Part shown: positions 19,471 through 25,311 of the stretch, piece after piece | How positions within the stretch are numbered: the first letter of the stretch is position 1 | Layout of the letters: each line of letters begins with the position of its first letter | Assembly: GCF_009741925.1 (NCBI RefSeq) | Contig: NZ_WPCC01000013.1 | Span: 1-64,000, forward strand | DNA length: 64,000 nt | Source: Natronomonas sp. CBA1123 | GTDB lineage: Archaea; Halobacteriota; Halobacteria; Halobacteriales; Haloarculaceae | Direction of reading: 5' to 3' | The notes under the pieces: model-generated | Told to the model about the DNA's origin: nothing | The model's database searches: none | Seen by the model: only the letters and a program-made list of their open reading frames with translations | Made by a program: the position numbers and the translations under genes

Positions 19471-20358
19471 GTGATAGACGTACGCGACCTCCGGAAGGAG
19501 TACGGCGGGTTCGTCGCCGTCGAGGGCAGTTCCTTCGCCGTGGGTTCGGGGGAGGTGTTCGGCGTCATCGGGCCGAACGGCGCCGGCAAGACGACCACGC
19601 TGAAGACGCTGGCCGGACTGCTGGAACCGACGAGCGGCCACGTCGAAATCGATGGCGCTCCCGCGGGCGCTCGCGAGACCCGGCGGAACCTCGGCTTCCT
19701 CCCCGAGGAGTCACCGCTGTACGAGGAGATGACGCCGCTGTCGTATCTCCGCTTTTTCGCCGACCTCTACGACGTTCCCCGGTCGACCGCCGACGACCGG
19801 ATTCACGACGCCCTCGACCGCCTCGAACTCGACCACCGCGACCGCGCCCTCGGCGACATGTCGAAGGGTATGAAGCGGAAAGTCGCCATCGCCCGGTCTC
19901 TCGTCAACGACCCAGACGTACTCGTCTACGACGAACCGGCCTCGGGACTGGACCCGCTGACGACCAACTACATCATCGAGTTCACCCGCGAGTTGGCCGA
20001 GGAGGGCCGGACCGTCGTCTTCTCGGCGCACAACCTCTATCACGTCGAGGAGGTCTGTGACCGCGTCGCCATCATGAACGAGGGCCGCATCGTCGCGAAG
20101 GGCCCACTCGAGGACCTACGGGACCGATACGGCGACACCGAGTACCACGTGTTCACGACCGTCGACGTTCCCGACGCAGTCGCCCAGAACGGCCGCTATC
20201 GCAGCGTCGTCGAGGACATGGAATCGGTCGAGGAACTCCGGGAGACTGCGAGTGCCCGCGGTGGCGAAATAGACGACATCCGAACCGTCGAACCGAGCCT
20301 CGAACGGCTGTTTCTCGACCTCGCCGAGGCCGACGACGCCCGGGAGACGGAGGCCTGA
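19471..20358 (+). CDS. ABC exporter ATP-binding protein
   Basis: The 295-residue subunit (GTG start) has Walker A 'GPNGAGKTTT', Q-loop 'GFLPEESPLY', signature 'DMSKGMKRKVAIARS', Walker B 'VLVYDEPASGLDP' and H-loop 'FSAHNLY'. The SKGM signature is typical of NatA/DrrA-like export ATPases. The C-terminal ~80 residues form an accessory domain. A TATA-like ATTTTTGTA lies about 27 bases before the GTG. Its stop shares one base with the start of the permease-protease gene. The transported substrate is not indicated. Confidence 0.93.
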   Translation: MIDVRDLRKEYGGFVAVEGSSFAVGSGEVFGVIGPNGAGKTTTLKTLAGLLEPTSGHVEIDGAPAGARETRRNLGFLPEESPLYEEMTPLSYLRFFADLYDVPRSTADDRIHDALDRLELDHRDRALGDMSKGMKRKVAIARSLVNDPDVLVYDEPASGLDPLTTNYIIEFTRELAEEGRTVVFSAHNLYHVEEVCDRVAIMNEGRIVAKGPLEDLRDRYGDTEYHVFTTVDVPDAVAQNGRYRSVVEDMESVEELRETASARGGEIDDIRTVEPSLERLFLDLAEADDARETEA

Positions 20359-22210
20359 TGCGGCCGCGCAAACTCCTCCGCATCGCGCGCTGGGAGACGA
20401 CCAAGGGTGTCGGCGGTCTCGACCGCGGAGCAGTCGCAGTTGCCGTCGCCGCTACTGCCTTCGTTCTCGCTGTCGGCGTCGCCGTCGCTGGCGGCGGCGT
20501 CGCCCTCGAAGACGGCATCTACCGCGTCGGCGTCTCCGAGGATAGTCGGCTTCACGACCCCATCGCGGCGGATTCTTCCTTTACCGTCGTCGAACCGGAC
20601 CCCACAGCCATCGAGAGCGGCACGCTGCCGGCAGGCGGCCGATACGACCTCTACATCGAGGTGCGGGGCGACGAGACGACGCTGTATCTGGCGGCCGAAG
20701 GGGGGAGCGCCGACTGACAAGAGCCGTGCGGCCGTCGCTGCGCTACGGGAGTCCGTCGACCGCTACAACGACCGGCGGATGTACGAGGAGGACAACGAAA
20801 CGGCCGCCTTCCCGGTGACGGTGACGATTCGGTACGTCGAACGGGGCTTCGATGCGGGGGGGTGACGGGGGCGGCGGTGGCTCCGACGATGGGGGCGACT
20901 CCGGTGGTACTGGAACCGGCGGCACCGGCGGCGGTGACACCGGCAGTGGAGATGCTGGCGACCCCGACGGGGAGACGACCGACGACGGGTCCATCGGCGC
21001 ACCGTCGCTGGGTGCCTTCGATTTGTTCGGCACGACCGAATCGACGGGGTCTCCCTCGGACATCTCGCCACCGTTTCCCTTCCAGTCGCTCGTGTTGGCC
21101 TTCCTCTTCGTGTTGCCGCTGAACTTCGTCATCCAGGCCTACGGCAGTTCGATGCTCTCGGAGCGACTGAACCGCCGTGGGGAACTGCTTCTCGTCGCGC
21201 CCGTCAGCCCCGCCGAAATCGTCTTCGGGAAGACGCTTCCGTATCTCGCTGCGTCGCTGGCTATCACTACTGCCGTCGTCGCCGGTCTGTGGGCGCTGGG
21301 CGGGGAGGCCGGGCCGCTGTCGGTGTTGGCAGTCCTGCCGCTGGCACTGCTGTTCCTCGCGACGACGTTCCTCGGGTCGATGTTCGCCCGCTCGTTCAAG
21401 GAACTCACCTTCGTCACCGTCACCGCGAGTACGGTGTTGACCTCGTATGCGTTCGTCCCGGCCATCTTCACTCAAACCAGTCCCGTCGCGTTCGTCTCGC
21501 CGCTCACCGTCGCCGTTCGGGACCTCACCGGGGCGGGCGTCACCGCAGGTGAGTTCGCCTTCGCGACCGGCCCCGTCACGCTCGTCGCCGGGGTCTGTTT
21601 TCTGCTGGGGTTGGGCGTCTACCGCGAGGAGGACCTCTTCACCCAGCGGCCGGTCCACCTGAAGGCACTCGACGCGCTTGCTGGCCGCATCCGGCGACCC
21701 CGGAGTCTCCTCTTGGTCGTCGCGTTGCTCGTCCCGTTCGTCTTCGTCGCCGAGTTGCTCGCCGTCGCGCTGCTGTTTGCCCTCCCGGTCGCCGTCTCCG
21801 TGCCGCTGGTCTTCGCCACAATCGCCGTCATCGAGGAGTTGGCGAAGGGGTTGCCCATCTACGCCGGCTACGTCCACGGTCGCTACGACCGCTCGATGGC
21901 CGTCGCCGTCGTCGTCGGCGCGGCCGCCGGCGTCGGCTTCTTCCTCGCCGAGAAGGTCTCGCTCGCCGTCCAACTCGTCGGGCTCCCGGGGACGGAGGTG
22001 GCCGACGCGGCCTTCCAGACCGGCCTCGGAACCCAAAACCCCGCGATTATCGCACTGCTCGCCGTCGCGCCGCTGGCGCTGCACGTCCTCACCTCGATAC
22101 TGTCGGCATTCGGCGCGAGCCGTGACCGAACTGGCTTCGTGGTCGGCCTCTTCGCCGCGATAGCGGTTCATCTCGTCTACAACCTCGCGGTGGTGAGCCG
22201 CCTTGTCTAG
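20358..22210 (+). pseudogene. ABC-2 permease fused to a PrsW-like intramembrane protease; two +1 frameshifts
   Basis: Three successive frames encode one protein once one G is removed from each of two G runs (20700-20705 and 20856-20862), giving about 616 residues. Order: a membrane helix near residues 25-45, an extracellular domain, a Gly/Asp-rich linker, then ABC-2 (NatB-like) helices including 'PLNFVIQAYGSSMLSERLNR' and 'VAPVSPAEIVFGKTLPYLAA'. The C-terminal part carries 'VIEELAKGLPIYAGYV' (EExxK, near residue 492), 'GFFLAEK' (FxxxE) and 'AVHLVYN' (HxxxN), the signature residues of PrsW/CPBP-type membrane proteases. It sits between the ATPase and a second permease. The gene may be intact in the organism if the G runs are sequence errors. 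Confidence 0.82.
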
Positions 22211-23247
22211 AACGACCATCGCCAGACGGGAACTCGGCTCGCTGTCCCGCGAGAAGACCATCGTCCTCGCGATTCTCATCCAACTGATTATCGCGGGCTT
22301 TTCGTCGTTCCTCGTCGTCGGGCTCACGTCGCTGTACGACCCCGGCGGGGGCGGTGAGGAGATACAGGTCGCCGTCACGGGCGAGGCCGCCGACGAACTG
22401 ATTGCGGCGGGCAACGAGGTCGAGGGGCTGAACCCCGTCGAGTACCGGGACCGTTCCAACGCCCGCGACGGCTTCGACAGGGGTGATGCGGCGGCCATCG
22501 CCATCGCCGAACATCGAGACGGCCGCATCGACGTGTCGGTGGAGGCACCGCAGTCGAGTCTCCAGAAGACGCTCGTCGTCGTCCGCCTCCGGGCGGCGCT
22601 GGAGCAACTCGAACGTAGCGAACGACGGGACCGCGTGGGGTCTCTCGACTTCGACCCAATACCGCTGCCGCCGTCGGTCGACGCCAGCCCGTACTTCGGC
22701 TTTACCTACACCATCCTCGTTCCGTTGCTCGTCTTCCTGCCGGTGTTCATCAGCGGCGCCGTCGTCGTCGACTCGGTGACCGAGGAGGTCGAACGCGGGA
22801 CGCTCGAACTGCTTCGGGTCACGCCGGCCTCGCTCGTCGAAATCGTCGAGGGGAAAGCCGGAATCATGGCTGTCCTCGCGCCGTTACAACTGCTGCTCTG
22901 GGTCGTCCTCTTGGGTGCCAACGGCATCGCCATCTCGAACGTCGTCGCGCTCGTGGTTCTCACCACGGCAGCAGCAGTCCTCGCCGCAGTCTTCGCTGCC
23001 GGCTTGGCGGTCACGATTCCCGTCCGGCAGCGCGCCCAGTTGACCTACTCCTTCGGCGCGCTCGCGGCCTTCGCTGCGGCGACGGCGCTTCCAGAACACC
23101 CGGGGACGACCGTCGCCCTGCTCGCCATCGACAGCCCGACGCTCGTGACATACGCCCACGTCGGGGGGATATGCTGTCCTCGCGGCCGTTTCGGCCGTCG
23201 CTCTCCGGGTTGGAATCGACCGAATCGACCCCGAAACGCTCGGGTAG
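22203..23247 (+). pseudogene. ABC-2 type permease, one +1 frameshift near the 3' end
   Basis: The protein starts at TTG, overlapping the preceding gene by eight bases, and has six hydrophobic helices with NatB/YhaP-like features ('RRELGSLSREKTIVLAILIQ', 'GAVVVDSVTEEVERGTLELL', 'RVTPASLVEIVEGKAGIMAV'). At the run of six G (23163-23168) the reading frame is lost just before the last helix; removing one G continues 'GGYAVLAAVSAVALRVGIDR' to a TAG at 23245-23247 (about 347 residues). It completes a three-gene exporter with the ATPase and the permease-protease fusion. Confidence 0.82.
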
Positions 23248-24260: not shown

Positions 24261-25226
24261 TCAGCGCCGACGAGCGAGCAACGCCGCACCGACCAACGCC
24301 ACAATGGCGACGCCGCTGCCGAAGCCCGCGCCGTCGCCGGCCGTCGGTGACTGGACGACTTCACGTTCCCACTGTGCCTCCGTCGGCGTCGGTGTCGGCG
24401 CTGGCCGCGCCGTCGGCTCCGGCGTCGCGGTCGGTTCGGGCGTCGGTTTCGGCGTCGTCTCGGCCGAGGTGTCCTCGGGGGTCGGCGTCGATTCGGATTC
24501 GGTCGTCGACGTGTCTTCGCTCGTCGTGTCGTCTTCCGGCGTGCTCTCTTCGGAGGACTCGGGCGTCGGTTCCGGCGTCGGAGTCGGCTCCGGTTCCGAC
24601 GGCGGCGGCCCGAGTTGCTCTCTGGCCTCGGCTTCGTTCTCACAGTCACAAATCCAGAAGTAGTGGGATTCGCCCTCGATGGTCTTCCGCTCGCCGCTTT
24701 CGGTCACGCCCGTCGTTTTCCCGGTGAGCTGGTACCAACCGGGTTCGTCGGGGTTCGTGTAACACGTGGCGACCGAAACGATTTCGTCGCCGTCGTCGAG
24801 GTGTGTCGTCGAGCCGCCGAAATCGTCCTCGCCGTAGAAGTCGACTTCGAAGCGGTCCTCGCCGGCGGAGAAGCTCTTGACGTTGCTCTCGAGGCTCTCG
24901 TCGACCTTCTGGCCCTCGTAGGTGCTCCCGCGGTCGATACCGAACGTTTCCGAGTTGGAGGGTCCACAGCCCTCGAAACTCCCCTCCTCGTAGATGGCCA
25001 ACAGCGTTTCGAGCGTCTCGAAGTCCGTTCCGGCTTCCCCGACGACGAACTGGCCGTACTTCACGTCGGTCGCGCCGGGCGAGCGGTCGCCCATCGGCTC
25101 GACAGTGAAATCCGCGCTTTCGGGTTCGTGGCTCGCGGCCGCGACGCCGGCACCGCCGGGTACGGCGCCGACGAACAGTGCCAGCGTCAGGATGGTCACG
25201 AATCCGACGGTTACTCCCCGGTTCAT
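24261..25226 (-). CDS. Secreted surface protein with Thr/Pro-rich stalk and C-terminal sorting-type anchor
   Basis: Starting at the ATG at 25224-25226 the protein has about 321 residues: signal peptide (about 1-30), a folded ectodomain with Cys pairs ('FEGCGPSN', 'VATCYTNPDEPGW', 'YFWICDCENE'), and a low-complexity Pro/Thr/Glu/Ser stalk of about 100 residues. The C-terminus reads 'GDGAGFGSGVAIVALVGA' plus 'ALLARRR': a short motif, one helix and an Arg cluster. This resembles PGF-CTERM tails processed by archaeosortase A, but the canonical Pro-Gly-Phe is Ala-Gly-Phe. The ectodomain family is not recognised. Confidence 0.82.
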   Translation of the reverse strand: MNRGVTVGFVTILTLALFVGAVPGGAGVAAASHEPESADFTVEPMGDRSPGATDVKYGQFVVGEAGTDFETLETLLAIYEEGSFEGCGPSNSETFGIDRGSTYEGQKVDESLESNVKSFSAGEDRFEVDFYGEDDFGGSTTHLDDGDEIVSVATCYTNPDEPGWYQLTGKTTGVTESGERKTIEGESHYFWICDCENEAEAREQLGPPPSEPEPTPTPEPTPESSEESTPEDDTTSEDTSTTESESTPTPEDTSAETTPKPTPEPTATPEPTARPAPTPTPTEAQWEREVVQSPTAGDGAGFGSGVAIVALVGAALLARRR

Positions 25227-25311
25227 CGTCTCTATCGGGGTAAAGGAGTCCAATCCGGTTACGGCTACTGCCGGCAATGACCGGTTCCACGCGATTCGAC
25301 CCGAGCGGGGA

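Follow-up and report, generated by a model that had tools for sequence, protein, structure and literature searches.

The locus and its frame breaks

The window, by which we mean the entire 64,000-nucleotide stretch of Natronomonas sp. CBA1123 DNA analyzed here, carries on its forward strand a three-gene operon in the order ATPase, fusion, second permease. The first gene (19471–20358) encodes a DrrA/NatA-like ABC transporter ATP-binding protein (PF00005, 107 bits); its best NCBIfam match is TIGR01188, at a score below the cut-off of that model. The second gene (20358–22210) encodes an ABC-2 permease joined to a predicted PrsW-type intramembrane protease domain and occupies three frames in the window. 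The third (22203–23247) overlaps the second and encodes another ABC-2 permease, identified by PF12698 (56.6 bits) and by its co-occurrence with the fusion. These open reading frames agree with the first-pass annotation, which had placed the fusion between the ATPase and a second permease.

The fusion gene begins in frame 0 at 20358, meets a stop at 20717, continues in frame 1 to about 20865 and is completed in frame 2 at 22210. The first break lies at a G run (20700–20705) that is one base longer than in Natronomonas gomsonensis L002, and the second at a G run (20856–20862) at the start of a Gly/Ser/Asp linker; at both runs the window is one base out of step with L002. In L002 the fusion is an uninterrupted frame of 617 residues, and its protein is 96% identical to that of the window. 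Because the gene is one open frame in this close relative, the breaks most likely represent assembly or sequencing errors; alternatively, the operon may be genuinely broken in strain CBA1123. The single frame in L002 and in other relatives bears out the earlier reading of one gene after frame repair.

The second permease gene also contains a frame break, at a G run (23163–23168) that differs by one base from L002. There are three G runs of at least six bases in the operon, each coinciding with a frame break. In another haloarchaeal genome (L132:3350–5321), the fusion is likewise split over three pieces, in different frames. Elsewhere in the window, positions 24261–25277 on the reverse strand encode a secreted protein that has a stretch rich in Thr, Pro, and Glu and carries a PGF-CTERM sorting signal (27.0 bits against a cut-off of 24.5); judged by these features, the product is likely an archaeosortase substrate.

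A PrsW-type domain at the C terminus of a permease

The permease half contains ABC-2 transmembrane helices 2–6 at 21068–21646 on the forward strand, where PF12698 scores 29.7 bits, slightly short of the 31.6 cut-off; at E 0.01, 30 of the 43 fusions match the same profile. In the predicted structure of the whole fusion (mean pLDDT 78.9), residues 148–239 form a low-confidence, Gly/Ser/Asp-rich linker, while the last domain mostly reaches 94–98, and this domain modeled alone gives a pLDDT of 93.1. Residues 1–430 of the model match ABCA4, ABCA1, and NosY at Z about 17, and the permease half also resembles a mycobacterial efflux pump. Profile, fold, and partner ATPase all place this half among the ABC-2 exporters, with the window fragment falling just short of the profile threshold. 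Taken together with an ATPase that is nearest to DrrA models, these likenesses could point to an ordinary DrrAB/NatAB-like drug, lipid, or ion exporter in which the additional domain is a mere structural extension of the permease.

The additional domain (21647–22207, forward strand, 187 residues) scores 31.5 bits against the PrsW profile PF13367, above the curated cut-off of 23.5. This profile search was one of the checks proposed with the first-pass annotation, and it supports the protease assignment made there. The score of the fusion is modest, at about 30 bits compared with about 150 for stand-alone haloarchaeal PrsW, an example of which is encoded in the same genome (148 bits). The protease half is mostly missed by standard models. 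PF13367 recognizes it in only 4 of 43 full-length fusion relatives, which leaves the fusion largely hidden, and the one public record examined, that of a plasmid, labels the fusion merely “ABC transporter permease subunit.” When the domains were excised and scanned against Pfam at E 0.1, a laxer threshold than that of the full-length scan, PrsW was matched in 28 of 69 members and Rce1/CPBP (PF02517) in 2 of 69.

Profile-profile comparison of the 69 fusion domains with 18 stand-alone haloarchaeal PrsW sequences gave a probability of 91.5% (E 8.4e-7); EExxK, the glutamate of FxxxE, the single histidine, and HxxYN were all in register. An alignment of full-length fusions compared with canonical PrsW gave 93.1%. 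As controls, the domain profile was compared with the partner permease (0.1%) and with a small CPBP set of five sequences (2.3%). A duplication of the permease as the source of the C-terminal half was ruled out on the first of these values. CPBP in place of PrsW was ruled out on the second, together with the excised-domain counts, and all members have EExxK and FxxxE rather than the EExxxR and FxxxH of CPBP/Rce1. The original description of the domain as PrsW/CPBP-like accordingly narrows to PrsW. Searching PDB chains with the domain profile found no sequence match up to E 10.

PrsW proteases are described by EExxK, FxxxE, an additional helix histidine, and HxxxD/N (PMC4602095), and each of these is present in the fusion. 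On the forward strand of the window they appear as EELAK (21833–21847), FFLAEK (21938–21955), LALHV in the helix before the last motif (22073–22087), and HLVYN (22169–22183). EExxK, FxxxE, and HxxxN had been recognized at the outset; the helix histidine, invariant in the relatives, is added here as a fourth element. It is present in PrsW, where it is the counterpart of H576, and absent from CAAX proteases (PMC4602095). In 80 haloarchaeal loci, E493, E494, K497, F528, E532, K533, H576, H605, and Y608 (L002 numbering) are invariant, and residue 609 is asparagine in 79 and aspartate in one. The same residues are invariant in another 39 loci, of which 38 come from other classes of the phylum; some of the 39 have aspartate at position 609. 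The complete motif set, with N or D at the last position, is therefore kept in 119 of 119 relatives, including both glutamates and the lysine of motif 1, and this invariance across the two groups of loci excludes chance. The 69 domains share a median pairwise identity of 31%, and just ten alignment columns are unchanged throughout: E, E, K, F, E, K, P, H, H, and Y. Nine of these are PrsW motif positions and the other is a proline. We consider the structural-extension reading very unlikely, as the positions that never vary in the domain coincide almost exactly with the PrsW motif and the domain aligns with the PrsW profile but not with the permease profile.

The top fold matches of the domain are to APH-1 of gamma-secretase (Z 10.9 and 10.3; rmsd 4.2–4.3 over about 160 residues), followed by a human BOS complex subunit (Z 9.9), Mce1/MlaE permeases (Z about 8), and Rce1 (Z 5.1). 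The assignment rests on VIA re-alignment; Foldseek alone, with either the whole model or the domain, returned no match at E 0.001 or better. Since APH-1, CPBP, and PrsW are homologues (PMC6588880), the structural check proposed earlier also came out in favor of the superfamily. The fold alone is not decisive, because the ABC-type Mce1/MlaE proteins reach Z about 8 and because permeases of the ABCA/ABCG/LptFG type share the topology of APH-1/CPBP/PrsW without the polar residues (PMC6588880). The identity of the domain is instead decided by residues and profiles together. In the model, the motif residues all lie at 50–75% of helix length, mid-membrane, consistent with the superfamily fold holding these residues inside the membrane; loop charges place the TM8–9 and TM10–11 loops in the cytoplasm. 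An ABC permease fold lacking the catalytic geometry, the outcome that would have spoken against the first-pass annotation, was not what emerged: the domain sides with PrsW over the permease in profile comparison, the motif is invariant, and its predicted position is within the bilayer.

In gamma-secretase, the catalytic role belongs to a subunit other than APH-1. As a non-catalytic relative, APH-1 also means that the fold is no proof of catalysis, and the C-terminal domain could be a catalytically silent, APH-1-like scaffold that captures hydrophobic substrate helices or lipids and hands them to the exporter. The ranking of APH-1 and the BOS complex subunit above Rce1 among solved folds is in keeping with such a role. 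We nevertheless regard it as quite unlikely, since a scaffold would be expected to lose some of its catalytic-type residues, yet this ancient family has kept the glutamates and lysine of EExxK, the FxxxE glutamate, and the two histidines without exception. APH-1 itself carries QExxR in place of EExxK (PMC6588880), whereas every fusion member has EExxK.

Distribution and gene neighborhood

The survey covered a haloarchaeal sample of 145 genomes and a sample of the phylum Halobacteriota, which includes methanogens and Archaeoglobi. Of 80 haloarchaeal loci, 77 show the order ATPase–fusion–second permease, whose conservation had been left to a survey. For two of the exceptions (L021 and L060), the fetched stretch starts too near the fusion to include the ATPase. 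The third is a second, orphan copy of the fusion in Halorussus salinisoli (L044:4431–6365) that has neither ATPase nor partner permease; it is surrounded by HNH-repeat genes and a gene resembling an IS605-type transposase, and its motif residues are intact.

The fusion is present in 106 of the 145 haloarchaeal genomes, and the second permease likewise in 106, the same genomes as the fusion among the matches listed, so that the two apparently occur together. The other 39 genomes of this sample manage without the operon, so it is not a universal requirement. One genome from the same genus has no trio, and there the flanking zinc-finger gene and aldo/keto reductase gene are about 70 bases apart. 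The phylum sample adds 55 genomes outside the class that also have the fusion. The early suggestion that it may exist in other haloarchaea was therefore right but did not go far enough, since other classes of the phylum also have the fusion. In loci from these classes (L096–L131), the fusion and second permease are still adjacent, and the ATPase is divergent in 30 of 38 loci, which makes the fusion–permease pair steadier than the operon order.

Apparent TAG stops lie inside the fusion matches of eight genomes. In one of these (L088), the fusion reads through as one open frame, and the TAG is most likely the terminator of the gene itself, onto which the match runs. The sole case without the protease domain (L133:3851–6183) is a deletion that joins the fusion near residue 405–407 to the inside of the second permease gene. 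It was ruled out as a clean domain loss because it extends into the next gene, a further point against the domain being a mere structural extension.

Comparison of the neighborhoods found no fourth conserved gene and no consistently adjacent gene for a substrate or regulator; a downstream gene for an aldo/keto reductase and an upstream gene for an SRPBCC-type protein are common to only part of the haloarchaea. This bears on the possibility that the protease does not act on cargo and serves as a regulator or quality-control factor, cleaving an anti-regulator or a damaged subunit according to the state of the transporter. A precedent is the PrsW of Bacillus subtilis, which is the site-1 protease for the anti-sigma factor RsiW (PMC4602095, PMC9263693), and an extracytoplasmic domain between TM1 and TM2 of the fusion could sense the state of the envelope. 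We think a regulatory role unlikely, given the lack of a regulator gene consistently adjoining the operon in the neighborhood comparison. In addition, such a role may be filled elsewhere, because both this genome and 17 of the 18 other haloarchaeal genomes tested encode a canonical stand-alone PrsW.

A possible protease-exporter and its relation to known systems

Our preferred reading, towards which we lean slightly, is that the operon encodes one ABC-2 exporter with two different permeases, one of which carries an active PrsW protease, and that a cut hydrophobic peptide is exported. The three genes would encode a single exporter of the ABC-2 class, similar to ABCA and NosY, in which the two permease subunits differ and one has at its C terminus an active PrsW-family intramembrane protease of the glutamate type. 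This protease half would cut a hydrophobic peptide or a membrane anchor within the bilayer, such as a small membrane protein or the remnant of a signal peptide, and the ATP-driven half would move the cleavage product out of the membrane.

The domain identity, the fold, the invariance of the catalytic residues, the operon, and the co-occurrence are computed results. That the protease half cuts peptides is strongly suggested by the conservation of its residues; a coupling of cutting to export, and hydrophobic peptides as the substrate class, are proposed by analogy with bacterial systems. Signal peptide processing or stress sensing as the role, both raised in the first-pass annotation, is speculation. 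It is also possible, if rather doubtful, that this is an exporter spread across the phylum Halobacteriota in which proteolysis is coupled to ATP-driven extraction and which clears or secretes membrane peptides, including possibly signaling peptides.

The operon is common and ancient and physically joins a putative protease to a pump, and it bears on how archaea handle hydrophobic membrane peptides and on the targets of archaeal PrsW-type proteases. If its products act as one machine, peptide cutting and export may be carried out by a single ABC transporter across an archaeal phylum.

Several known systems share features with the fusion. APH-1 is the closest solved fold and a superfamily homologue (PMC6588880), but it differs in its first motif, in having no transporter fusion, and in not being a catalytic subunit. 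Stand-alone PrsW (PF13367, NF033739) shares the motifs and helical core of the fusion, along with the profile match above the Pfam cut-off; it is a site-1 protease that stands by itself, whereas the fusion is joined to an ABC permease within an ABC operon. Haloferax volcanii HVO_0408 has been termed PrsW-like (PMC9263693) and may be either a fusion or a stand-alone PrsW.

A closer parallel in architecture is NF041647, the NCBIfam family of ABC transporter permease subunit/CPBP intramembrane proteases. Like the fusion, its members combine an ABC-2 permease N-terminal half with an intramembrane glutamate protease C-terminal half, but the protease half is, by the family name, CPBP rather than PrsW-type. 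The fusions match this model at best at E 2.9e-5, short of its equivalog cut-off of 435 bits. In the window, the second permease scores 30.6 bits and the fusion fragment is unmatched, and 0 of 100 genomes sampled from the phylum reach the cut-off. ABC permease–CPBP fusions are known as a named family, and what is new here is a fusion from the PrsW branch; no study of a PrsW–ABC fusion was found in the papers searched.

Protease and exporter are also joined in one polypeptide in the peptidase-containing ABC transporters (C39, PCAT), which follow a cut-and-export logic. The C39 protease is a cytosolic cysteine protease on another type of exporter, while that of the fusion would be intramembrane and on an ABC-2 exporter.

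A functional parallel may lie in the Firmicutes, where EcsAB with RasP or Eep, and PptAB with Eep, combine an ABC transporter and an intramembrane protease in the handling of small hydrophobic peptides (PMC7157817, PMC2996298, PMC5167397). In Staphylococcus aureus, the production and export of linear peptides derived from lipoproteins require both Eep and EcsAB (PMC7157817). The intramembrane proteolysis carried out by RasP is affected by EcsAB, which has been proposed to clear the membrane of peptides (PMC2996298). The proteases of these systems are separate, site-2-type metalloproteases that are not fused to the transporter; in the haloarchaeal operon, one complex would do the job that in Firmicutes is shared between a transporter, EcsAB or PptAB, and its intramembrane protease partner.
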